The notes under the pieces were generated by a model. That model saw only the letters and a list, made by a program, of their open reading frames with translations, was not told where the DNA came from and searched no databases. The position numbers and the translations under genes were made by a program. Below are positions 1,513 through 12,419 of a stretch of DNA of 64,000 nt, piece by piece. Numbering within the stretch: position 1 is the stretch's first letter; every line of letters begins with the position of its first letter. The stretch is from positions 1-64,000 of the forward strand of contig CALJAM010000001.1 of assembly GCA_938027685.1 (NCBI GenBank). The letters run 5' to 3'. This stretch comes from an uncultured Bryobacteraceae bacterium (GTDB lineage Bacteria > Acidobacteriota > Terriglobia > Bryobacterales > Bryobacteraceae).

Positions 1513-3036
1513 ATGTCATGTCCGCTCGTGTCTGCCGGTTGCCGCGCATGTACCGCAGCGACCCGCCGCCAATTCCTTGGCGCGCTGGCAGGCGCTCCGA
1601 TGGTTCTCTCTTCCGCAGGAGCCCGCAGGCTTCGCGCTGCTCAGCCCGCAAGGCAGCCGCCGGTCCGTGTGGCGCTCAAGGCACAGCCAGTGCTGGTTTA
1701 TTCGCTGTCGAAGCGCAAGGAAGCGTGGAGCTGGCGTCCCTGGGGAGGGCTGCACACCGAGGCCGACGTCGCCGCCGAGAAGGAACGTATCGGGCGCGAA
1801 CTTGCGGCCATGGCCCGCCAGGCGGATTTTCCGCTGGAGCTTTTGCCGTTGGCCGAGGCACGTAGCCCCGCCGAGGCCGAGGCCGTTGCCCGCAACAGCT
1901 ACGACGCGACGATCATGTTCGCGGCGAGCGGGCCGCTGAGCGCGTTGGAAGCCTTGGCCAGGGCGCACCGCTGGAACCTCATGTTCGTGCGCCATCGCTC
2001 AGGGCCTGTCTACTTGTGGTACGAGATCGCCCATCCGCGCTTTCTGCGTAAGACCGTCGACTACTACGGGCAACCCAACATGGGCGTGGACGACGTGGTG
2101 GTCGACAGCTACGCGGAACTACTGTGGCGGCTGCGCGCGCTGGCCGGGCTCAAGAACGCCCTCGGGAAGCGCATCGTGGCCGTGGGCGGACCCAGCGGCT
2201 GGGGCGCGGGCGGTAAACTGGCGCCGCAACGCTCGCGCGAGGTCTTCCAGCTCGACATCGTCACGGTGCCGTACAGCGATCTGGGTGAGCGGATCAAGCG
2301 CGCGCGCTCCGATGATAGTTTGGTGCGCCGCGCGCACGCGGCCGCCGAAGAATACCTCGGGCAGAAAGGCGTGCGCCTGGAGACCGACAAGAAGTTCGTG
2401 CTGAACGCTTTCGTCCTCAACGAGGTTTTCCACGACCTGCTGGACGAGGCCCGCACCGACGCCATCACGATCAACCAGTGCATGGGCACGATCATGCCGC
2501 TGGCGGAAACGACCGCCTGCCTGCCGCTCTCGGTGCTGAACGACGCCGGCTACATGGCCTTTTGCGAATCGGATTTCGTCGTGATTCCCTCAGGCATTCT
2601 GCTGCACTACATCTCGGGCAGACCCGTCTTCCTGAACGATCCTACCTGGCCGCACGACGGCGTGGTCACCATCGCGCACTGCACGGCGCCGCGCAAGATG
2701 GATGGCAAGACGCCCGAGCCGGTACGCATCCTGACTCACTTCGAATCCGATTACGGCGCCGCTCCCAAAGTGGAAATGAGGAAGGGGGCGCTGATGACCA
2801 ATCTGATCCCGGATTTCAACTTCCGCCGCTGGCTGGGCTTCAAGGGACAGATTGTAGACGTGCCCTTCCTGGACATCTGCCGCAGCCAGGTGGACCTATC
2901 GGTTCAAGGCGACCTCGCCCGCCTGGTGCGGGAGATGGTCGGATTCCATTGGATGAGCTGCTACGGGGACTACCTGAAAGAGACGGGCTACGCCCTCGCC
3001 AAGCTCGGCATCGAGTGGACGAACGTCTCGGCCTGA
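1513..3036 (+). CDS. Tat-signal protein, L-fucose/arabinose isomerase-like
   Basis: 507 residues. The N-terminus carries a twin-arginine signal (RRQFLGALAG from residue 18) and a preceding Cys-rich leader of 17 residues. The body has the alternating sheet/helix pattern of the fucose-isomerase fold. The C-terminal third holds conserved-looking blocks (INQCMGTIMPLAE, FCESDFVVIPSG, ILTHFESDYGAAP) that resemble the metal-binding C-terminal region of sugar isomerases. I infer a ketose/aldose isomerase-like enzyme acting outside the cytoplasm, but catalytic residues cannot be assigned by eye. The start is well supported by GAGGAGGAG five bases upstream of ATG 1513. The stop TGA at 3034-3036 directly abuts the stop of the convergent thioredoxin-like gene. 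It is probably co-transcribed with the oxidoreductase before it. Confidence 0.6.
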   Translation: MSCPLVSAGCRACTAATRRQFLGALAGAPMVLSSAGARRLRAAQPARQPPVRVALKAQPVLVYSLSKRKEAWSWRPWGGLHTEADVAAEKERIGRELAAMARQADFPLELLPLAEARSPAEAEAVARNSYDATIMFAASGPLSALEALARAHRWNLMFVRHRSGPVYLWYEIAHPRFLRKTVDYYGQPNMGVDDVVVDSYAELLWRLRALAGLKNALGKRIVAVGGPSGWGAGGKLAPQRSREVFQLDIVTVPYSDLGERIKRARSDDSLVRRAHAAAEEYLGQKGVRLETDKKFVLNAFVLNEVFHDLLDEARTDAITINQCMGTIMPLAETTACLPLSVLNDAGYMAFCESDFVVIPSGILLHYISGRPVFLNDPTWPHDGVVTIAHCTAPRKMDGKTPEPVRILTHFESDYGAAPKVEMRKGALMTNLIPDFNFRRWLGFKGQIVDVPFLDICRSQVDLSVQGDLARLVREMVGFHWMSCYGDYLKETGYALAKLGIEWTNVSA

Positions 3037-3288
3037 TCACGAGCCCGCCTGACGCAAGGCGGACAGCAGGCGCTTCAGCTCTTCGACCGTAGGCACTTTG
3101 CCCGACACCAGCACCTTGCCATCCACGACCACGGCGGGCGTCATCCGCACGCCCAGCGCCGCGAACTGGCGCGGATCGTTCACGTGCGAGATGTCCGCCG
3201 CCAGATCGAGCTCCGCACACGCGTTGATCACGTTGCGTTCCGTGGCATGACAACGGTAGCAACCGGGACCCACGACCTGAATCTTCAT
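3037..3288 (-). CDS. Miniature thioredoxin-like redox protein (CxxC)
   Basis: 83 residues, the length of the small thioredoxin/glutaredoxin-fold proteins called redox-active disulfide protein 2. The active-site CYRC is at residues 10-13, directly after the first strand, and the cis-Pro segment MTPAVVVDGK follows near residue 52, so the fold is complete but lacks the helical extensions of normal thioredoxin. No signal peptide is visible, so it should act in the cytoplasm as a dithiol donor or metal/metalloid shuttle. An in-frame ATG exists at 3303, but GAGGTGA five bases upstream of ATG 3288 fits the shorter form. It is the last gene of the ArsR-controlled operon, four bases after the permease. 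This pairing with a DUF318-type permease is a recurrent one from general knowledge. Confidence 0.85.
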   Translation of the reverse strand: MKIQVVGPGCYRCHATERNVINACAELDLAADISHVNDPRQFAALGVRMTPAVVVDGKVLVSGKVPTVEELKRLLSALRQAGS

Positions 3289-3292
3289 GGTC

Positions 3293-4345
3293 TCACCTCG
3301 CAAAAACGAAATTTCCGAAAACCCACCCCACTAGCGTGCCCAGCACGACGATCGTCCCCACGTAGACGGCGGCTTTCCGAACGCCGAAGACGCGGGCGAC
3401 GGCCAGCCAGTTGGGCAGGCTCAAACCTGGGCCGGTCAGCAGCAGCGCCAGCGCGGGCCCGGATCCCATGCCCAGCTTCATCAGCGTGTCGACGAAAGGC
3501 GCCTCGGTCATGGTGGCGAAGTAGCTCACGGCGCCGATCAGCGTGGCCAGGAACGAAGCCCGCAGGCTGCTGCCGCCCAACCAGGTGCGGATCCACTGCT
3601 CAGGAAGCAACTTCCCGATCACGCCCACCACGAACACGCCGGCCAGCAACAGGGGGAAGATGATGCGCACGAACCACCATGTTTCGCGCAGCCAGGCGGC
3701 GATCTCCTCCCGCGGCGCCGTTCGCCAGGCGTAAAGCGCCACCACCGCGGTCAACGCCGCCCAGACCAAGACCTTGTAAACATACGCGCCCGTGCGCACC
3801 ACGTAATTGGGAGCCAGCAGCGATACCACGACCAGACCCAACAGCACGAGTCTTTCACGGGCGATGATCGGGCTGCGCTGGGCCTGCGCCGCTACGGGAG
3901 CCGGCCGCGAGCCCTGCTCCCGGAAGGCCAGCGACATGACCATCCCTACGAGGAAGGCCATCGCCAGGGCGGCCGTCACGCGCGAAACCACCATCGCGGC
4001 GCCCAGTATGCCGCCAGTGTACACCAATGCCAGAATATTGGTGGCCGGAGCGACCCAGAGCACGATGAACGCGGCGCCGATGCCCGCACCGCCGTAGTAA
4101 AGGCCGCTGGCCACGGGAATTACCGTGCAGGAGCACGCCGCCACGAAGAAACTGGCGCCGGCCGCCAGCGGGAAACTCTTCCATTTACTCGCCTGCTCGC
4201 CCAGGTAATCGAGGATCACTTCCCGGCTCATGAAAGCCACGATCCCGCCTGCCAGCAGAAAGGCGGGCACCAGGCAAGTGAGCACGTGCGTAGCGATGTA
4301 ATCCCGGAGAGCATTCAATCCGGCCAACAGCAGCTCGCCCATCAT
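3293..4345 (-). CDS. ArsP/DUF318-type membrane permease
   Basis: 350 residues, with about eight to ten hydrophobic spans in two halves, as expected for the PF03773 (predicted permease/ArsP) family. The signature region around residues 65-95 reads FVAACSCTVIPVASG, with a CSC pair inside a membrane segment; related cysteines in ArsP have been implicated in binding trivalent organoarsenicals. The second half has a matching LTGPGLSLPNWLA segment. A polar linker near residues 145-160 divides the halves. The start ATG overlaps the stop of the FmdE-like gene (ATGA), so translation is coupled. The substrate is inferred: arsenical, thiol-bound metalloid or another soft anion. The ArsR-type repressor at the head of the operon favours a metalloid or thiol-reactive ligand. 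I do not assign arsP because sequence identity to the tested proteins cannot be measured here. Confidence 0.8.
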   Translation of the reverse strand: MMGELLLAGLNALRDYIATHVLTCLVPAFLLAGGIVAFMSREVILDYLGEQASKWKSFPLAAGASFFVAACSCTVIPVASGLYYGGAGIGAAFIVLWVAPATNILALVYTGGILGAAMVVSRVTAALAMAFLVGMVMSLAFREQGSRPAPVAAQAQRSPIIARERLVLLGLVVVSLLAPNYVVRTGAYVYKVLVWAALTAVVALYAWRTAPREEIAAWLRETWWFVRIIFPLLLAGVFVVGVIGKLLPEQWIRTWLGGSSLRASFLATLIGAVSYFATMTEAPFVDTLMKLGMGSGPALALLLTGPGLSLPNWLAVARVFGVRKAAVYVGTIVVLGTLVGWVFGNFVFAR

Positions 4346-5112
4346 GGCTTATCCTCCGCCGCATCCTTGCGCGGCATGTGCTTGTTGATGATGTCTCCGC
4401 GCTCGCCGAACAGGTCTGTGGGGCGGAACCGGTAGCCCGGAATCGACTTCAGATCGAGCAAGGAGGCGGGCGGCGCGGTGAGGATCCGGCGGCTGGTCTG
4501 CTCGGCCATACGCTCGACCTCGTCGATCTCATCCGCCGTGACCGGCTGACCTGCCGCCCGGCGCGCTCGGATGCGTTCCTCAAGCGCGGCCTGCTCGGCG
4601 GGGAACACACCCGGCCTCAGCCGCACCTCCCAGGCTTCTCCATTCGAGATTCGCTGAATGATGAAGCCGTCACCCACGCTGTTGTCGATGCGCAAGGTCT
4701 GGAAGTTGATGCGCGCTCCGGTCAAATACATGGCCGCGTCCACCCAGCAGGGACCGTTCTTCGCCACCGCCCGCAAATCCGTGCGATCCACCACTCCCCC
4801 CGGAAACAGCTTCTCCAGGGCTGCCTTGATCTGGACGAAGGCGATGACCAGGCCGTCGCAGAGGTGACCATGAAAGCGTGCCAGGTCCTTCAATCCCACT
4901 TCTTTGGTGAACCGGTCGTATCGGCCGAGCGCGCTTTCGGTGTCGCGCACCCGGATGGGACGTGCGTTAGGGGCGCGCGCAACCCATTCGGGGAAGAACC
5001 AGTCCGGCGCGAGATCGGTGCATCCCCGGCATGTGTTGGTCTGAGGCACGCTGGACCCCAGCGCGCCGAGGCTCAGCAGTTCACGTCGAGTGAGTTGCCG
5101 GAGCAGGCTCAT
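4342..5112 (-). CDS. FmdE-domain protein with Tat-like leader
   Basis: 256 residues. The N-terminus has a twin-arginine-like leader (TRRELLSLGALG from residue 8) followed by a CRGC pair at 28-31, so the protein may be exported or use that pair for metal binding. The core is the FmdE fold (subunit E of formylmethanofuran dehydrogenase and its stand-alone relatives). Its hallmark appears as HGHLCDG at 81-87, where relatives usually have HGHxCPG. The second metal-region block reads NGPCWVDAAMYLTGARI, lacking the Cys normally found after the TG. The C-terminal zinc finger of larger FmdE proteins is absent; a charged helical tail ends in KHMPRKDAAEDKP. There is no methanogenesis gene nearby. One base separates it from the upstream TSUP gene and its stop overlaps the permease start. 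Function unknown; a metal-binding periplasmic or membrane-face partner is inferred. Confidence 0.75.
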   Translation of the reverse strand: MSLLRQLTRRELLSLGALGSSVPQTNTCRGCTDLAPDWFFPEWVARAPNARPIRVRDTESALGRYDRFTKEVGLKDLARFHGHLCDGLVIAFVQIKAALEKLFPGGVVDRTDLRAVAKNGPCWVDAAMYLTGARINFQTLRIDNSVGDGFIIQRISNGEAWEVRLRPGVFPAEQAALEERIRARRAAGQPVTADEIDEVERMAEQTSRRILTAPPASLLDLKSIPGYRFRPTDLFGERGDIINKHMPRKDAAEDKP

Positions 5113-5113
5113 A

Positions 5114-5851
5114 TCAACCCAGAAGCGTGAAGATCTTGTAGGCCGTCATGACCACGATGAGGACGCCGAACATCTGTCGCAGCCGTCCGCCGGCCACGTA
5201 GACGCTGGTGACGCGCGCGCCAAGGAACGACCCGACGAAGCCCGCCACAACCAGGGTCGCGGCCAGGTGAGCCTGAACCCGAGCTGAACCCACGTGGGGA
5301 ATCAGAGCCGAGAACGATGGCGGGGTGATGGCCAGCGCATTCATACCCGCGGCGCGCTTGGGTTCGAAGCCCACCAGGATCAGCGTGGGCAGGAGCAGGA
5401 AGCCGGGACCCACGCCGAGCAAACCGCTCAGCACCGAAATCGGTGCGGCCAGCAGCAGGGCCGTACGGAATTTCTCTGCGCCCGGCCGCGCGCTCACAGG
5501 ACGGAACAATCGCCATGCCAAATAGATCACGGACGCAAAATAAACCAGCCAGATCTCGAATTGCGGCACGTGCTGAGCCGCCCAGGCGCCCAGAGGCGCA
5601 AAGACGGTCGTTGTAACGGCCAGGATTGCCCCACGGCGCCACTCGACGTACCCGCTGCGGGCGAAACCCAGCGTGGACGCCAGGCCGGTGAGACCGTTCA
5701 GCAGAAGGCTGAGCGGTTGAACCTCGTGGACCAGATCCTGCATGAACAATCCCAGGAATGGAATGGCGGCGAAAGCCACTCCCAAGCCGAGCATTCCGGA
5801 GACAAAGGCAAGCACCAACAGGCCGACCGTCAGGATGAGATTCTGGCTCAT
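5114..5851 (-). CDS. TSUP (TauE/SafE) family membrane permease
   Basis: 245 residues with seven to eight hydrophobic spans arranged as an inverted repeat: FVSGMLGLGVAFAAIPFLG near the start and LSGLLGVGPGFLLLPTLIL near residue 135 are the paired glycine-rich motifs of the TauE/SafE (TSUP) family. Members move sulfite, sulfonates, thiosulfate or other small organic and inorganic anions across the inner membrane. A longer reading frame extends upstream to 6178, but it is only the shadow of the ArsR gene. ATG 5851 overlaps the ArsR stop (ATGA), which fixes the start. In sulfur- and persulfide-handling operons this family often follows an ArsR-type regulator of the BigR/SqrR kind, which is an alternative reading of this cluster. 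Confidence 0.85.
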   Translation of the reverse strand: MSQNLILTVGLLVLAFVSGMLGLGVAFAAIPFLGLFMQDLVHEVQPLSLLLNGLTGLASTLGFARSGYVEWRRGAILAVTTTVFAPLGAWAAQHVPQFEIWLVYFASVIYLAWRLFRPVSARPGAEKFRTALLLAAPISVLSGLLGVGPGFLLLPTLILVGFEPKRAAGMNALAITPPSFSALIPHVGSARVQAHLAATLVVAGFVGSFLGARVTSVYVAGGRLRQMFGVLIVVMTAYKIFTLLG

Positions 5852-6201
5852 GATGGTCTTTTGCGGACAAGCGCGGTACGCCCTGCTCGGGCCGCCGCCG
5901 GCGTCGCACCGGCAGCCCGGCCTCGCTCGCGCCACGCGGTGCGCAGGGAGGCGATGAATCGGGCCGCGACGCGCCCCGGCGCACTCAAGCGGCAGTAGAC
6001 TCGGCGGCCCCGCCGCTGGTCGGCAATCAAGCCTGCGTTGCGGAGGCAAGTCAAATGGCGGGAGACGTTCGACTGCGTCAAGCCCAGCGCCGCCTGGATC
6101 TCGCAGCCACAGCGAGGCCCTTTGACGAGCAGCTCCACGATGCGAAGCCGGTTGGGATCCGACAGGGCGCGGAACCAATCGGCCAGGAGATCCGGCTCCA
6201 T
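5848..6201 (-). CDS. ArsR-family metalloregulator, operon repressor
   Basis: 117 residues from the chosen start. The winged helix-turn-helix is complete: FRALSDPNRLRIVELLV at 10-26, LGLTQSNVSRHLTCLRNAGL at 39-58 (recognition helix), and the wing RRGRRVYCRLS. A CGC pair at 31-33 occupies the place of the As(III)-sensing ELCVCDLC box of ArsR; two of the three cysteines are present. DNA release on binding As(III), Sb(III) or a thiol-reactive ligand is therefore inferred. An upstream ATG at 6219 would add MYDHNL, but it lies inside the promoter spacer, so the message should start near 6204 and be nearly leaderless at ATG 6201. The C-terminal tail after residue 85 is low-complexity, rich in Ala and Arg. 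It heads the five-gene operon and should be autoregulated. Confidence 0.9.
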   Translation of the reverse strand: MEPDLLADWFRALSDPNRLRIVELLVKGPRCGCEIQAALGLTQSNVSRHLTCLRNAGLIADQRRGRRVYCRLSAPGRVAARFIASLRTAWRERGRAAGATPAAARAGRTALVRKRPS

Positions 6202-6210
6202 CAAATTATG

Positions 6211-6240
6211 ATCATACATTCATGTATCCTCTGCTGTCAA
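6211..6240 (-). promoter_or_regulatory. Sigma70-type promoter of the ArsR operon
   Basis: On the minus strand TTGACA (6240-6235) is followed after 18 bases by TATGAT (6216-6211), nearly consensus for both boxes. The predicted start of transcription is about 6204, three bases before ATG 6201. The alternative ATG at 6219 falls inside the spacer and could not be translated from this promoter. Confidence 0.7.
6214..6227. promoter_or_regulatory. Perfect inverted repeat, probable ArsR operator
   Basis: ATACATGAATGTAT: two perfect six-base arms (ATACAT/ATGTAT) around a GA centre. It covers the end of the promoter spacer and half of the -10 box. A dimeric ArsR protein bound here would block RNA polymerase, which fits simple autorepression. 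Confidence 0.6.
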
Positions 6241-6597
6241 GCGAGCGCCGAGGCGATGCAGCGGATGCTTGCCGCTAAGACCGCAGTATGCAACCCGGGA
6301 CGACTCACCGCGGATCTTGCTTAGGCAGTCCTCGAGCCGTACCTTCTCCAGGCCGTCCCGAGCGCTCTCCGTCCGTGGGAAGGCTACTGGGGGCGTCGTG
6401 GGGATTGCCGCCTTCGGTTGGCACGACCCGCGCCATCAAGGCATTCCGGGACCTTCGAGAGCCGGGCTGAAAGGCAGCCGCCGCGAATTCTGCGGCCGGC
6501 GTTTGCTTGCGCCCGGCGCGCGTAAGGCTCGAGCTCTCGCAGGCGAGCTGCTCGCCGCCTTGTCACCGAAAGGACATACGACCCCGCAGGTCTGGCA
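6241..6597. other. Intergenic region between the ArsR promoter and the sulfatase 3' end
   Basis: No convincing gene was found. Short open frames here have no supporting start signal or recognisable product. The only structure noted is the hairpin at 6542-6556. Confidence 0.5.
6542..6556 (-). terminator. Hairpin downstream of the receptor-sulfatase operon
   Basis: A perfect six-base stem, GGCGAG/CTCGCC, with a three-base loop lies about 40 bases past the sulfatase stop codon. There is no T-tract, so it would be a weak or Rho-assisted terminator at best. Confidence 0.3.
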
Positions 6598-8121
6598 TCA
6601 GCCCGCGTGAGGGCCGATGAGCACGGTCTCGAAGGAACCCCGGGTGATCTCCCAACCCCGCTCCACGTAGGCGCGAAGGTACTCCCGTAGCTCCTTGGCG
6701 AGCGAAGGATGCTGGGCGACGACGTTGTGTAACTCTTCGGGGTCGCGCCGGAGGTCGTAAAGTTCCTCGAATGCAGGACCCCGGCTCCATCGACCGATGT
6801 AGCAGAACTCCGGCGTGCGGACGGCGGCGTGTTCCCCCCAGCCCGTAACGATCCGCTCCCCGTTGGGCGAACGCTCGTTGCGTTCGATCATGCCTACCAG
6901 GCTGTGACCGGTGACGCGTTTGGGCACAGCGACTCCGAGCAGCTCGAGGACCGTCGGCATCACATCGGTATGCAAGGCGAAACCCTTGACCCGCTTCCCG
7001 GCCCACGCCTTTCCGGGATGGTAGATCAGCAGGGGCACGCGCGTGACCTGTGTGCGGATCCTTTGCTCTCCCTTATGAATCTGTCCTTGCTGACCCATCA
7101 TGGTGCCATGATCCGCGGTCAACACGATCACCGTGTTCTTGTCGAGACCGAGCTCTTCCACCTTGCGCAAGAAGCGGCCGATGCGATCGTCGACGAAGGT
7201 GACGAAGCCGTTATACAGAGCCCGCACATGTTCCACTTCGAGCGGACTCAGGTTCTTCGTGCCGGCGGGCGGGGCGATCAGCCGGGGACCGCGGTAATCC
7301 GCCTTCATGTACAGGCGGTAGTAAGCTTCCGGCGGATCCCAGTACTCATGGGGAGAGAAAGACTCGACATGGAGATAGAAGGGTTGGCTTTCGTCCGCAT
7401 TGTCCTCCAACCATTGGGCCGCCTCGTTGAAGACGCGTGCGGCCAGCCAGTCCTCCTCGCTCTTCCACCCACTCCGGTTAGTCAGGTACTGCAACACCCC
7501 CGGAGCCGCGCTGGGCAGAGCCATGGCGGAGACTTCCCAGCTCGTGCCGGTCAACTGGGAGGGGTGCATGTAGCGGCTAAGGTCGATCTGTTTCCGCGGT
7601 CCGCTGGCCCAGCGATCGGCTTCCTGTCCCCGGACGTAACGCCAGCAATCGAAGCCGCGGTGGAAGTTCTTCCCGGGCTTGAACTGGTGATAAACGTCGC
7701 TGATCCATGCGGTCATGTAGCCGGCGGCGCGGAGCGTTTCCGAAAGAGTGATGTCCTCTTCGTACAAGGGATGCCAGCCGCGGATCCTGACCGGATCGTC
7801 CCGCTGCCGCACCAGGTAGGAGGGAAAGACCTGCCGTCCGGTGTACAGCGCACGTCTGGCCGGCAAGGTCGGAAGAGCTTCCGCAAAAGCCTCCTCGAAC
7901 ACCGCTGACTTGGCTGCCAGGGCGTCCACGTGCGGCGTTCGCACCTCCTGGTTACCGTAGCATCCGTACCAATGGGCGCCCCACGTGTCCACGACGATGA
8001 CGATCAGATTCCATCGGCTGGGCGCCGCTTTGTGTTCTCGGGCCTCGGGGCGGCCGCTCTGCGCACTGGCAGCTGCGGCGAGTCCTGCGCCGCCCAACCA
8101 TGTGCGACGGGACATTTGCAT
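6598..8121 (-). CDS. Tat-exported sulfatase-like hydrolase with Thr at the nucleophile site
   Basis: 507 residues with an exported N-terminus (SRRTWLGGAGLAAAASAQ at 4-21). The alkaline-phosphatase-superfamily core is clear: VIVVDTWG with metal-ligand Asp 45, TADHG in the second half, and a C-terminal DLRRDPEELHN block typical of type I sulfatases. The signature C/S-x-P-x-R, whose Cys or Ser becomes formylglycine, reads TLPAR at 85-89 followed by RALYTGR, so Thr replaces the modified residue. Formylglycine chemistry is therefore not expected; a direct Thr nucleophile, as in related phosphodiesterase or phosphonate hydrolases, is possible. ATG 8121 has AGGAGG eight bases upstream; the longer frame to 8415 is receptor antisense/overlap. 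It starts 29 bases after the TonB receptor stop, so the two form an operon. Confidence 0.8.
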   Translation of the reverse strand: MQMSRRTWLGGAGLAAAASAQSGRPEAREHKAAPSRWNLIVIVVDTWGAHWYGCYGNQEVRTPHVDALAAKSAVFEEAFAEALPTLPARRALYTGRQVFPSYLVRQRDDPVRIRGWHPLYEEDITLSETLRAAGYMTAWISDVYHQFKPGKNFHRGFDCWRYVRGQEADRWASGPRKQIDLSRYMHPSQLTGTSWEVSAMALPSAAPGVLQYLTNRSGWKSEEDWLAARVFNEAAQWLEDNADESQPFYLHVESFSPHEYWDPPEAYYRLYMKADYRGPRLIAPPAGTKNLSPLEVEHVRALYNGFVTFVDDRIGRFLRKVEELGLDKNTVIVLTADHGTMMGQQGQIHKGEQRIRTQVTRVPLLIYHPGKAWAGKRVKGFALHTDVMPTVLELLGVAVPKRVTGHSLVGMIERNERSPNGERIVTGWGEHAAVRTPEFCYIGRWSRGPAFEELYDLRRDPEELHNVVAQHPSLAKELREYLRAYVERGWEITRGSFETVLIGPHAG

Positions 8122-8150: not shown

Positions 8151-11100
8151 CTACCACAGCAGCTTCAATCCAACGAAGATACGCCGTTCTTCCTGCCCGG
8201 TTTGAGTGGCGGTCACGCGGCCGAAGAGGGTGCTGGTCGGCGTGGTGTTTGGTGCGGCGAAATTGGGTGTGTTCATCGCTCCCTCGGCTTCGCCGCGCAG
8301 CTGGAGCGTCAAGCGCTCCCAGATCCTGAAGTTCTTGTGCGCGGAGAGATCCCAAATGTTCATGCCGTCGGCACGCACGCAGGCAAAGCGGCTGGGCAGC
8401 GTGCGGATGTTCCAAGCAAGCTGCCTCGCCGCGCTGCGTTCGAACCCCTCCGTGTTGAACCAGCGGTCAATGCTGCGCACGTCCGAGGGGAGCTTCAGAT
8501 CCCGGTACCGCCCGCTGTAGATGACGTTGCCGAAGGCGAGCCCCGGACCGCTTTGCGCCTGATAGATGGCGTGAACCTGCCATCCGCCAACAATGTGGTT
8601 CAACAGACCGGTCGCCTGGCCGGCAAAGCGCTTGCCTTTGCCGAAAGGCAGCTCGTAGAGAGCCGAAACCGTCAGGCGGTGCGGGCGGTCCAAGTTGCTT
8701 ATCACGTGCTCAGGGATGGGATCGGTGGGGTTGAGATAACTGACAGCCTCCATGGTTTTGGACCAGGTGTAGTTAGCCTGGAGCTGAAGGCCGCTGGTCA
8801 GTCGGCGCTCGAAGCGCACCGTAAGCGCATGGTACCAGCTGCTGCCCGCCGGCAGCGCCGTACCCAGACCGTCCGAGAAGTGCGGGTAAGGCAGCAACAG
8901 TTGCGCCCGCGTGGTGTTCGCACCTGCATAAAACGCAGTCCCTTCAAAGCCCCGGATGCCCCGAAACGGGTTGACCACGCGGGCCGAAAGGAAGTCGATC
9001 ACCGGCTGGTCGCGCACGGGCAGCGTGCTGAGGTACTGTCGGGGCACCGGATTCATCGCGGTGGAGACGCGCAAGCGCGTGCCGCGCGAACCGATGTAAC
9101 CCAACTCGAAGACCGAGCGCGCCATGGGTTCGAATTGAATCGAATAACTCCAGCGCTGCGTGTAGGGCCGTCGTCCGTCAGCCGCGAAGAACCCGGGGGC
9201 GCGCCCAAGGAAGGTCCGCATGCCACCCGCAGCGCCGAGCGGCTTTTCGAGCCCGAAGGGGAAGGGGTTGGCAATCGAAGCAATATAGGTCTGACCGTTA
9301 TCGAGCGAGGCGACGATGTTAGTGCGCAGGTTAAACCCCGGCTGCGCGGCATCGCTGTAATCGGCGCCCAGCAGCCCGAAGAAGATTCCGTAGCCGCCGC
9401 GCACCACCAGCCGATCTCTCAATTGCCAAGCGAAGCCGAAGCGCGGCATCAAAGCCCGGTAGTAGGGGTCGCGGATCCCCCGCGGGTTGCCGCCTACGCC
9501 GAGAAACGTCAAGCCGCCTATGGTGCGGAACTGCTGCAGGGGCACCTCCGGGATGGGGGCCCGCGCATAATTGGCGCGGGCCTCGGGCTCGATCGGGTTG
9601 GGCGTCGCGAAATCGAAATCCCGCGAGGAACGATTGAACCGCTCCGTGAGCGGTCCCTCATACTCCCAGCGCAAACCGAGGTTGAGCGTCAGGCGACGGG
9701 CGACGCGCCAGTCGTCTTGCAGGAAGAATGAAACGAACCGAGACGATTCGGCACGCGAATCATTCAGGTCCACTCCTCCCCCCGTCGGGATACCGAACAA
9801 CAGGCTGGCCAAGCTTTGGCCGGAGCCGGGCGCACCGGGGGAATTGTCCAGCGGTCCGCGGGTGTAAGTGTCCCCGAAGCTGTATGCAGGCGAAACGTTG
9901 CCATAGTTCTTGGAGTTCTCCATCATGAGACGGCCGTCGAAACCCCACTTCAGGCTGTGCGTGCCCCGGCTCCAGTTCGTAACCATTAAGAGCGAGTGCG
10001 TGTAATACTTCTGCGAAAAACCGCCGTCGTTGCCCAATGGCAACATGCCGCTCACGCTGATTTGCGGGAAAGAGATGCCGCGCGGATCCAGTTGGGCAAT
10101 CAGCGAATCCGGGAGGCCGAATTCCTTCAGGTTCCAGCCCATGTTGTCGAAGCTCTGGAACTCCTGAAACCAGGTGAACCCGTACCGCACATCCAGAACC
10201 ATCCGCGGACTCAAAACCAGGACGTTATCCAAAGCGACGCCGCGGTGGGGACGTCGCCGCCGGCGTCCGCGCACTTTGCTGTCCGGAATGAGCTGATCGA
10301 AGTGGCCGTAGAAATCCGAGTGCGAGTATCTGCCGAATAGGCGGTGCCTCTCGCCGAAATTGTGATCCACGCGCGCCACGGGCTGGTAGAGATCCTGGCT
10401 CTCCCGGCGGGTGCGGGCGTAGTTGTTGAGGAAATCGGCAGTGCCCGCCTGATTTGGCGGTGGAAAGTATCTAAGGATGTTCCTGGCTGCGGGGTCTATC
10501 CGGCTCGGGGGGACGATGTTGCCGGGCAGCGGATCGCGCTGGAAGCGCGCAGCGCCGAAAGGCCGCGTCGTGAACGGGTCGTAGATCTGGTATTGCGAGC
10601 CTAGGGCGAGCAGCGCCGAGAAGTCCCCGCGCGCTTGCTCAGGGGTGGGTACCGTGTGGACCGTAGCCACAGGCCGCCTGCGATTGTGCGTCTGGTAGCC
10701 GAACTGCCAGAAGGTCCGGTTGCGGCCGTCGTAGAGTCTCGGAATGTAGATCGGCCCGCCCGCCGAGGCGCTGTAACGCAGCCAGCGTGTGGAGGGCGTG
10801 TTGGCCTTGATCTTCTCGGGCGTTATCGGTCCAGTGGTGGGGTCGAAAATAAAGCGGTTAGTGAAGAAGTTACGCGTCATCATGGGACCCGAAGATAGGA
10901 AGGTGGCCAGGGTTCCGCGGAATGCGTTGGTGCCTGATTTTAGGCTCACGTTCACCGAAGCCCCTGCTGAATGGCCGATGGACGCATCGTAAGCAGCCGT
11001 GTCGACGCGCACCTCGGCCACCATGTCCGGCGGGGGAACGAACGCGGTGCCTCCACCGTAGGAGTTATTGCTGACGCCGTCCACCGTGAACTCCATCCCT

Positions 11101-11675
11101 AGCCCGCGCGGGGTGCCTGCAATAGCGATGTTGGAGGACTGATCGATGTTCCAAGGTCCGTCGTAGGGCAGAGCGGTCCACACGGTCGCGGGCGACATCG
11201 AGTACAGCCAGGCGATCGAACCCGATCGCATGGGCATGTCGGCAAAGGTCTTGCTGTCCAGTACCTGCCCGATGTGGCCGGTGGAGGCTTCCAGCACCGG
11301 CGCCTGCGCCACGACCTCTACGGTCTCGGCCATGTTGCCCAGTTCGAGCTGAATGTCCACCCGAAGGCGGTCCCCGATGCGCAGTTCCACAGGCGGGCGC
11401 GTCCAGGTCTTGAATCCCGCCATCTCGGCTGTGATGCGGTAAGCGCCCGTAGGCAGGTAGTGCGCCTCGTATACGCCCTGCTCGTTGCTGACCGCGGTGG
11501 CGGTAAAGCCCGTTTCCACGTGCGTCAGCTTCACCGCGACACCCGGCACGACGGCGCCGGTCGAATCCGTGACCAAACCCACGATGCTGCCCCGCGGGTC
11601 CTGCGCCCACAGGTGGGCGAGCGCAGTGAGCCCGAGCAGGCACGCGTACAGTTCAACGCCCAACGCCTTCTTCAT
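8151..11675 (-). CDS. Oar-like TonB-dependent receptor with carboxypeptidase-regulatory domain
   Basis: 1174 residues, typical for the giant receptors of Acidobacteriota. A signal peptide ends near residue 24 (LAHLWAQ), followed by a carboxypeptidase-regulatory-like beta-sandwich at about 28-110 (GSIVGLVTDSTGAVVPGVAV, then YRITAEMAGFK). A plug domain follows (VEVVAQAPVLEAST and then NVSLKSGTNAFRG around residue 240). The rest is beta-barrel strands ending in RRIFVGLKLLW, with the terminal aromatic residue needed for outer-membrane insertion. It should import a large ligand, perhaps an oligosaccharide or peptide, using TonB energy. It is followed by the sulfatase-like gene, suggesting linked uptake and processing of a substituted glycan. 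ATG 11675 has GAGGTG eight bases upstream, and a good promoter lies at 11697-11725. Confidence 0.92.
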   Translation of the reverse strand: MKKALGVELYACLLGLTALAHLWAQDPRGSIVGLVTDSTGAVVPGVAVKLTHVETGFTATAVSNEQGVYEAHYLPTGAYRITAEMAGFKTWTRPPVELRIGDRLRVDIQLELGNMAETVEVVAQAPVLEASTGHIGQVLDSKTFADMPMRSGSIAWLYSMSPATVWTALPYDGPWNIDQSSNIAIAGTPRGLGMEFTVDGVSNNSYGGGTAFVPPPDMVAEVRVDTAAYDASIGHSAGASVNVSLKSGTNAFRGTLATFLSSGPMMTRNFFTNRFIFDPTTGPITPEKIKANTPSTRWLRYSASAGGPIYIPRLYDGRNRTFWQFGYQTHNRRRPVATVHTVPTPEQARGDFSALLALGSQYQIYDPFTTRPFGAARFQRDPLPGNIVPPSRIDPAARNILRYFPPPNQAGTADFLNNYARTRRESQDLYQPVARVDHNFGERHRLFGRYSHSDFYGHFDQLIPDSKVRGRRRRRPHRGVALDNVLVLSPRMVLDVRYGFTWFQEFQSFDNMGWNLKEFGLPDSLIAQLDPRGISFPQISVSGMLPLGNDGGFSQKYYTHSLLMVTNWSRGTHSLKWGFDGRLMMENSKNYGNVSPAYSFGDTYTRGPLDNSPGAPGSGQSLASLLFGIPTGGGVDLNDSRAESSRFVSFFLQDDWRVARRLTLNLGLRWEYEGPLTERFNRSSRDFDFATPNPIEPEARANYARAPIPEVPLQQFRTIGGLTFLGVGGNPRGIRDPYYRALMPRFGFAWQLRDRLVVRGGYGIFFGLLGADYSDAAQPGFNLRTNIVASLDNGQTYIASIANPFPFGLEKPLGAAGGMRTFLGRAPGFFAADGRRPYTQRWSYSIQFEPMARSVFELGYIGSRGTRLRVSTAMNPVPRQYLSTLPVRDQPVIDFLSARVVNPFRGIRGFEGTAFYAGANTTRAQLLLPYPHFSDGLGTALPAGSSWYHALTVRFERRLTSGLQLQANYTWSKTMEAVSYLNPTDPIPEHVISNLDRPHRLTVSALYELPFGKGKRFAGQATGLLNHIVGGWQVHAIYQAQSGPGLAFGNVIYSGRYRDLKLPSDVRSIDRWFNTEGFERSAARQLAWNIRTLPSRFACVRADGMNIWDLSAHKNFRIWERLTLQLRGEAEGAMNTPNFAAPNTTPTSTLFGRVTATQTGQEERRIFVGLKLLW

Positions 11676-11696
11676 GACCGGTGCACCTCTGGGGAC

Positions 11697-11725
11697 ATAT
11701 TAGGCCTATCCGGGAGCAAGATCAA
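11697..11725 (-). promoter_or_regulatory. Promoter of the TonB receptor-sulfatase operon
   Basis: On the minus strand TTGATC (11725-11720), a 17-base spacer and TAATAT (11702-11697). Spacing is optimal and each box differs from consensus at two positions. The leader to ATG 11675 would be about 15 bases and includes the ribosome-binding site. Confidence 0.6.
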
Positions 11726-12419
11726 GGGACCTGGCGGCACCTGAGGGTTTGAGCACTCTTTGTCGAAAATGCCCGGAGAGTTACGAAGCGCAGATCTCCG
11801 GAGATGAGTCCGAGCCGCGGGCCGGCGTTTTCGAACGAGGGATGTCCTCTCCGCGATTTCACTACGCAAGCGAGAGAGGACAAGCGCCCCGCGCCCAACC
11901 CGCAAGAACGTGGGACGATTGGCAGGGGAACCGCCGGATGCCTTCGCCACTACCGCTGTCCCACACCAGCGTGCGATGATCTAGGCCCCAGCGGCTCGAA
12001 GGCGAGGTGAGCCCACATAAGATAGGCGCGCGGAATGACTGGCGGCGGCTCGCCGAGGCGCCGATCGTCGCGGGCACGAACGTATAAGCGTGTCGGATCA
12101 CCTTGTCCAAGACCCGACGTGCGCCGATCGAGGTCGGTGCGCCGCGCAGGGCTCAGTCACGGCAGCGCTGCGGACGGCGCTGTGGCTCCCCACTGCCCGC
12201 ACGCGTCGGGTGCTGCTCAGCGATACTGGCCGGACGCGATAGAGCGGCAGGAACCGTTGACTGCCGCGGACTCGCGCAGGGGGCGTGCAGCGGCCCAGCG
12301 GGTGGAGCGGCCCTGTCTGCGGCGCCACGGAGCGCCATGACGCGATTCTCAGCCGGTGCAGCCGGTGGGCCGGCTCGGAAACCTCGGCGCCTGGCGTGGT
12401 AACATCGGCCTCACGGGCC
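11726..12419. other. Long divergent intergenic region with a 12-bp palindrome
   Basis: About 700 bases separate the receptor operon from the divergent sulfatase. No reading frame with protein-like composition or a start signal was found. A perfect palindrome ATCTCCGGAGAT lies at 11794-11805, about 70 bases upstream of the receptor -35 box, and could be a regulator site. On the other side an extended -10 (TGG then TAACAT at 12400-12405) lies 14 bases before the sulfatase ATG. Confidence 0.45.
11794..11805. promoter_or_regulatory. Perfect 12-bp palindrome upstream of the receptor promoter
   Basis: ATCTCCGGAGAT is fully self-complementary. Its position about 70 bases upstream of the -35 box suits an activator site, but a 12-bp palindrome can also occur by chance in a 700-base region. 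Confidence 0.3.

Follow-up and report, generated by a model that had tools for sequence, protein, structure and literature searches.

An FmdE-domain clade linked to ars genes and a putative arsenical resistance operon in an uncultured Bryobacteraceae bacterium

We analysed a 64,000-nucleotide stretch of contig CALJAM010000001.1 (assembly GCA_938027685.1) from an uncultured Bryobacteraceae bacterium, hereafter called the window, in which five minus-strand genes running from 6219 to 3037 encode an ArsR repressor, a TSUP permease, an FmdE-domain protein, an ArsP_1 permease and a small thioredoxin. Genes for relatives of this FmdE protein recur beside arsenic resistance (ars) genes in several phyla, and from the sequence comparisons this linkage of the family, like the arsenic link of the operon, is well supported. 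We consider it probable on balance that the operon is an ars-type system directed against trivalent, probably organic, arsenicals, in which an exported FmdE protein would handle arsenic beyond the ArsP exporter, a role that we infer for FmdE. The joins between the five genes measure -4, +1, -4 and +4 bases, with four-base ATGA overlaps between ArsR and TSUP and between FmdE and ArsP_1, a gap of one base between TSUP and FmdE and a gap of four between ArsP_1 and the thioredoxin, and all five products scored above the Pfam gathering scores in a profile search. The initial annotation of five minus-strand genes joined by ATGA overlaps or gaps of one to four bases is thus confirmed by the coordinates and the Pfam families.

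Linkage of FmdE genes to ars genes

Thirteen public-genome loci encode FmdE relatives at 53-66% identity, and their lineages are given as Bacillota, Syntrophobacterales, Syntrophus, Sporomusa, Methylocystis, Nitrospirae, Gastranaerophilales, Melainabacteria, Cyanobacteria, Deltaproteobacteria, Fusobacterium and one uncultured bacterium. The core set of 15 loci consisted of 13 obtained with patterns of the window FmdE together with those of genomes G002 (L019) and G203 (L039), and the next tier of 13 consisted of all nine further matches at E<=1e-20, the two strongest after G159 and two plasmids (L and G numbers denote loci and genomes). Markers of ars systems (ArsR, ArsP, ArsE, Acr3, ArsB, ArsA, ArsD, ArsC, ArsM and ArsF; tblastn, E<=1e-5) were present in 12 of the 15 core loci, at least two of them in 10, and in 11 of the 13 next-tier loci, again at least two in 10. 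A weaker tier, made up of eight of the 12 remaining matches, gave a marker in three loci (at least two markers in two), one of which, L081, owes this to a 27% ArsA match alone. No marker was found in nine loci of distant FmdE paralogues (seven of eight weak matches, a fragment being excluded, and two of three from a 151-genome search) or in 12 TSUP-paralogue stretches from eight genomes (covering at most 15 of the 20 TSUP matches outside the own genome). Fisher's test of the core and next-tier loci together against these controls (23/28 versus 0/21) gave p = 2.9e-9, a result that upholds the earlier suggestion of a role in handling a soft metalloid, here arsenic. The marker seeds were partly taken from core loci, which are thus matched by their own sequences. 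The independent test is the next tier with its seed locus, L025, removed, and compared with the distant paralogues it gave 10/12 versus 0/9 (p = 2e-4). Many flanks were shortened by contig ends.

Several loci are rich in ars genes. On plasmid p1 of Alicyclobacillus SO9 the annotated order is arsD, ArsA, ArsA, a hypothetical gene, FmdE, ArsR, an arsenic transporter, ArsC, arsC and trxB. NCBIfam models exceeded their cut-offs for ArsM (L012 and L048), for ArsF and ArsG (L018) and for Acr3 (L007), and Pfam supported ArsA in L007 and ArsD in L011. Two loci from the phylum of the window, L047 and L048, share the order ArsR-thioredoxin-CcdA-ArsE-FmdE-ArsP (the thioredoxin of L048 being recognised by eye), to which L048 adds Acr3, ArsC and ArsM upstream. 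In L018 genes of the ArsE, ArsF and ArsG types lie directly upstream of fmdE. The first Sporomusa stretch (L010) showed ArsR alone; the wider stretch from the same organism (L115) adds an ArsP/ArsE pair (10232-12107, minus strand) and ArsM about 8 kb from FmdE, and a further wide stretch, L116, also contains ArsM. Genes of the RND efflux type, recognised by eye, lie between the ArsP/ArsE pair and FmdE in L115.

Of the five genes that had been put forward for co-conservation, ArsR, FmdE, ArsP and the mini-thioredoxin do recur across phyla, but for TSUP the other FmdE loci of the core set and next tier, 28 in all, were without a match at E 1e-5. Two genomes of the same genus, G001 and G002, likewise gave no TSUP match, although the contig of G002 starts inside FmdE, so that a gap may lie behind its absence there. 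TSUP as a conserved partner was rejected on these results.

Among 44 FmdE rows placed in a tree, support for the core clade was 100/99, and a 35-row side holding all 25 ars-linked rows was split from the distant paralogues at 98/95. Two core loci were left out of the tree: L019, which is cut by its contig, and L039, whose frame is broken (at 5965-6770 its core-type FmdE is split into two frames, within a locus rich in ars genes). The ars label required seven changes on this tree versus a mean of 14.5 in shuffles, with none of 500 shuffles as low, in a test that asks solely whether the label clusters. Warnings on the tree concern the long branches L025 and L053 and uncertain joins between long branches, and the window FmdE joins the Methylocystis row with weak support (83/59). 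The organisms of the core clade are not sorted by phylum, and transfer of FmdE between lineages is therefore likely. The gene is rare among the genomes searched: it was found in five of 151, with strong matches only in the own genome and G002, and in 3 of 200, 1 of 17, 1 of 146, 4 of 150, 7 of 347 and 15 of 242 genomes of further sets (threshold 1e-25 for the 200-genome set, otherwise 1e-20; centre genomes are included, and weaker tiers are among the matches). Such rarity, and a tree that does not follow the organisms and suggests a gene mobile between lineages, would suit FmdE being a passenger of ars islands with no part in resistance. Against this stand the retention of the site motif, the tight joins in several loci and the differing ars neighbours in different phyla, and we regard a passenger as very unlikely.

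The FmdE protein and its predicted site

The FmdE gene (4342-5112, minus strand) encodes 256 amino acids with a Tat-like N-terminus, and residues 80-219 match PF02663 with 82.3 bits against a gathering score of 22.9. Searches of PDB sequences returned weak matches only, none of them an FmdE entry, but fold searches did find FmdE structures. An AlphaFold model made from 15 aligned relatives (mean predicted local distance difference test score 83.1) matched 2glz, 2gvi and 3d00 with Z scores of 13.7, 12.5 and 12.4, the next row scoring 6.1, and aligned with 2glz over 144 residues at a root-mean-square deviation of 2.7. The model suggests that the window protein has the alpha+beta core fold of PF02663, a core whose fold Axelrod et al. 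2010 (PMC2954224) describe as thioredoxin-like and circularly permuted.

In 2glz a zinc or nickel ion is liganded by His15, His17, Cys19 and Cys55 (PMC2954224). The window protein shares the FHGHxC...C motif of the 2glz, 2gvi and 3d00 structures, and its site motif is intact as F80-H81-G-H83-L-C85 and C122 (codons of H81, H83 and C85 within 4872-4858, that of C122 at 4749-4747). No core or next-tier row that extends over those positions lacks the HxHxC group or the second cysteine. Three residues after C122 stands an Asp, as in the motif of PMC2954224. The window protein differs from the 2glz type in having Met (+6) and Arg (+12) where the second motif of that paper has Gln and Thr, and in having no cysteine past C122, and the family differs in its ars context and in the export-type leaders of most relatives. 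Of the cysteine motifs listed in the initial annotation, CGC, HGHLC, CSC and CYRC are all present in the operon products; CRGC is also present, at FmdE residues 28-31, but is not common to the aligned relatives. It was rejected as a conserved metal motif, the window protein alone having it among the aligned rows displayed, and finds no support as a functional element.

The FmdE structures have a metal site but, in the text consulted, no assigned activity, and most PF02663 genes are reported to adjoin metal-ion transporters (Axelrod et al. 2010, PMC2954224). Together with the zinc and nickel in the crystals, this could point to copper, zinc or nickel homeostasis, with ArsP_1 as a metal exporter and FmdE as a periplasmic metal chaperone, and cation diffusion facilitator genes do lie near FmdE in L007 and L025 (annotated) and in L041 and L042 (by eye). 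We find this distinctly unlikely, given the arsenic-specific genes in several FmdE loci and the scores of the window ArsP, which fell below the cut-offs of both the SO_0444 Cu/Zn efflux model NF033936 (75.1 versus 300) and the SaoE model (92.8 versus 325). The proposal that FmdE is a metal-binding intermediate between two transporters did not find support. Pfam scans of the neighbours of the window FmdE gene identified ArsR, TSUP, ArsP, thioredoxin, a Gfo/Idh oxidoreductase, a sulfatase and one gene with no match; an FmdE of the methanogenesis type was rejected, no catalytic Fmd/Fwd subunits being among the scanned neighbours.

Most of the relatives begin with a hydrophobic stretch. Among core and next-tier rows with a usable N-terminus (the window, L019, L039 and the fused L046 being set aside), 22 of 25 reached a best 12-residue mean hydropathy of at least 2.2, the remainder being L011 (0.22), L025 (0.83) and L045 (1.68).

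Regulator, permeases, thioredoxin and flanking genes

The ArsR gene (5848-6219, minus strand; 123 amino acids as called) matches Pfam HTH_5 with 62.9 bits and the ArsR/SmtB metalloregulator model NF033788 with 95.8 against a cut-off of 55. A promoter-like site at 6211-6240 on the same strand, agreeing with 11 of 12 consensus bases, consists of a -35 TTGACA (6240-6235, position 6240 being the first base of the hexamer), an 18-base spacer and a -10 TATGAT (6216-6211); one such site was found versus a mean of 0.5 in shuffles. The called ArsR start at 6219 falls within this site, and the Met at 6201 is the likelier start. Between the -35 and the -10, and covering the start of the latter, lies a perfect 6-2-6 inverted repeat, ATACAT-GA-ATGTAT (6214-6227), which from its sequence and position is a probable ArsR operator. 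With up to one mismatch allowed it is single in the own 3.93-Mb genome, and a wider regulon of this ArsR was rejected accordingly; the palindrome was not found in two same-genus assemblies, one of which, G002, is without this stretch. The cysteines of the window ArsR are C37 and C39 (in C37-G-C39), C58 and C76, with none beyond residue 76. In the alignment C37-G-C39 takes the place of the CVC that most ArsRs of the FmdE loci have, and a CxC is present by eye in 26 of 29 ArsR rows of these loci, including the weaker-tier L078 and L080, the exceptions being L011, L013 and one of the two in L018.

The ArsP_1 (DUF318) permease (3293-4345, minus strand; 350 amino acids) matches PF03773 with 246.2 bits against a gathering score of 32.3 and had no PDB sequence match at 0.1. 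It carries CSC together with HVLTCLVPAFLLAG, close to the 'cluster 1' motif of ArsP as defined in PMC4435449. In its family, its CSC, its near cluster-1 N-terminal motif and its link to ArsR it resembles the ArsP methylarsenite permease (PMC6205960, PMC4435449), and by analogy with that family it may export trivalent (organo)arsenicals. ArsPs of the TPFCSC type also accompany FmdE in L007, L013, L039-L041, L043, L045, L047 and L048.

The last gene of the operon (3037-3288, minus strand) encodes a mini-thioredoxin of 83 amino acids with the CxxC motif GCYRC. It matches Pfam Thioredoxin_3 (83.3 bits), the MTH895/ArsE family TIGR00412 (82.8 versus a cut-off of 62) and the MTH895 structure 1ilo (E 1.2e-11). 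Like the systems of Castillo and Saier 2010, the window has genes linked to ArsR, a permease for arsenic and a small protein of the thioredoxin type, and in several FmdE loci the likeness extends to a CcdA match (L040-L045, L047 and L048) and a second thioredoxin by Pfam (L040 and L047). The window differs by its FmdE and TSUP genes and by giving no CcdA match, and neither FmdE nor TauE is mentioned in the main text of that paper.

A second known system, ArsEFG, is named for roxarsone and nitarsone (as cited in PMC9144182: Chen, Zhang and Rosen 2019). The membership of the window thioredoxin in the MTH895/ArsE family and the gene order of L018 recall it, and it is the model for an explanation in which a thiol-redox relay would run from ArsE through CcdA/ArsG and an exported thioredoxin to FmdE as its catalytic end, a reductase rather than a binder, ArsEFG being named as acting on nitro-arsenicals. 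In L016 and L018 FmdE starts at most four bases from an ArsG-type gene that follows arsE- and arsF-type genes (curated models in L018 only), CcdA-type matches occur in five of 15 core and nine of 13 next-tier loci, and the thioredoxin-like fold of the FmdE core would fit such a role. Half of the 28 loci have no CcdA match, however, the conserved part of FmdE contains no CxxC, and the window, where neither ArsF nor ArsG was matched, is unlike ArsEFG in this respect and would have the relay cut. We hold the relay to be possible and somewhat doubtful.

The TSUP (TauE/SafE) permease (5114-5851, minus strand; 245 amino acids, none of them cysteine) matches PF01925 with 116.1 bits against a gathering score of 32.6. 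In the accessible text of PMC4435449, the table of ars-operon transporters lists eight hypothetical transporters and does not name TSUP. Its presence could indicate sulfur or selenium chemistry, in which the operon would sense and move reactive species of either element, with the ars genes as a secondary theme. Consistent with this, FmdE occurs with a YedE-type transporter and a selenium/sulfur carrier in L006, L014 combines it with a rhodanese and a YedE-type gene, a YedE-type gene follows ArsP in L047, and L073 and L074 have rhodaneses. YedE-type genes were seen in these three loci (L006, L014 and L047), as against ars markers in 23 of the 28, and the window ArsR scored 41.1 versus a cut-off of 155 with NF040642, the model of the sulfur and sulfite sensor BigR, so that we think this explanation unlikely. 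That score and the lack of a cysteine after residue 76 also give no indication of persulfide sensing by ArsR, which the initial annotation had entertained in the form of persulfide handling. In L006, TusA, SelB and SelD were recognised by eye only. The rhodanese-type proteins lie upstream of FmdE (L014, 4210-10788; L073, 3959-10314; and L074), and in L014 and L073 a PhnD-type binding protein follows FmdE, with what appear to be a sensor kinase and a response regulator.

Downstream, a plus-strand gene at 1513-3036 converges on the operon and abuts the stop of the thioredoxin; its product of 507 amino acids has a leader with RRQFL and matched no Pfam family at 0.01. In G002 (L019) a partial FmdE, ArsP and the thioredoxin are followed by genes that by eye resemble the two flanking genes of the operon, among them a look-alike of this 507-amino-acid gene, and the G002 proteins (compared as L002) are 85% identical to the window in ArsP and 77% in the thioredoxin. 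No break in GC content was seen, terminator-like sites were at chance level (three versus a mean of 2.8 in shuffles), and none of 47 pattern stretches examined for viral carriage was a relative.

Proposed function and its bearing on the FmdE family

In the ars-type operon that we favour, ArsR would occupy the palindrome between the -35 and the -10 and be released from it once its cysteines had bound an arsenical. Once ArsP had exported the arsenical, the exported FmdE would bind or transform it at the outer side of the membrane through the His-x-His-x-Cys...Cys site, and this may prevent its re-entry or the poisoning of envelope thiols. The ArsE-type thioredoxin would supply cytosolic reducing power. 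Half of the related loci encode a membrane protein of the CcdA/ArsG type, which could pass electrons outward and keep the FmdE thiols reduced; the window is without this branch. More speculatively, TSUP might be a local addition, perhaps a mover of sulfur anions.

Apart from the choice of marker seeds described above, several observations weigh against such an operon. Three of the 15 core loci (L006, L008 and L009) have HGD-D genes alongside FmdE and no ars marker, the contigs of L008 and L009 being 4.1 and 4.4 kb long; in L006 (1317-12401) FmdE lies between two HGD-D genes, near BadF and the selenium/sulfur genes mentioned. Two of the 13 next-tier loci are also without a marker, and their FmdE genes adjoin or are fused to phosphatase-type proteins: in L024, on a Sulfuricella plasmid, FmdE is near ATP synthase and a rhodanese-type gene and is followed by a phosphodiesterase-type gene, and in L046 (91-2253, minus strand) a single frame of 720 amino acids joins an alkaline phosphatase (PF00245) to FmdE. 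L010, L012 and L074 each had one marker in the stretch first fetched. In the own genome, an ArsM-like gene on contig 12 (53882-54621, L114) is broken in frame, with no other ars marker in the 16 kb around it. Seeds for ArsF-like and CcdA/ArsG proteins had no match in the 64-kb window at E 1e-4.

The leader and the regulator of the window belong with these points. The FmdE of L011 and that of L025 have no hydrophobic leader, and the Tat-like leader described for the window FmdE stands as a short, twin-arginine-like sequence that is weak, with a best 12-residue hydropathy of 1.37 and no match to the Pfam TAT model at 0.01. Set beside the high values of the 22 relatives, this makes export likely in the family at large, but no more than plausible in the case of the window protein. 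The site of R773 ArsR consists of Cys32, Cys34 and Cys37, that of ArArsR of the first cysteine of the pair and two later ones, and two cysteines are enough for the sensing of methylarsenite (PMC11868830). In the window ArsR a Gln occupies the position of R773 Cys37 (the ArsR alignment used 13 of the 29 rows, all picked with a CxC, and R773 ArsR is not among them), so that the three-cysteine, type-1 As(III) site is lacking. The protein may sense methylarsenite or have a mixed site using C58 or C76.

It is possible, though we would put it forward only tentatively, that the exported FmdE is an unrecognised ars enzyme which, as a metal-thiolate protein, converts arsenicals outside the membrane instead of passively binding them, for example released trivalent organoarsenicals or thioarsenicals, and which has spread across phyla with ArsP, ArsE and CcdA. 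If true, this would give a function to a bacterial FmdE-fold protein.

FmdE is not mentioned in the accessible text of Castillo and Saier 2010 and Yang et al. 2015, and no paper naming FmdE as an ars determinant was found in the full-text literature searched, in which subscription papers are mostly not covered and in which PMC10831059 and PMC12524180, seen as listings, have FmdE or its full name together with arsenic; the arsenic link of the FmdE clade therefore appears undescribed. One clade of mostly exported FmdE proteins tied to arsenic resistance in several phyla offers a concrete and cheap handle on function, and brings a further candidate gene into a resistance system that is already well studied. 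It would help to replace the annotation label 'formylmethanofuran dehydrogenase subunit E family', and it suggests that the handling of arsenic may go on beyond the inner membrane.

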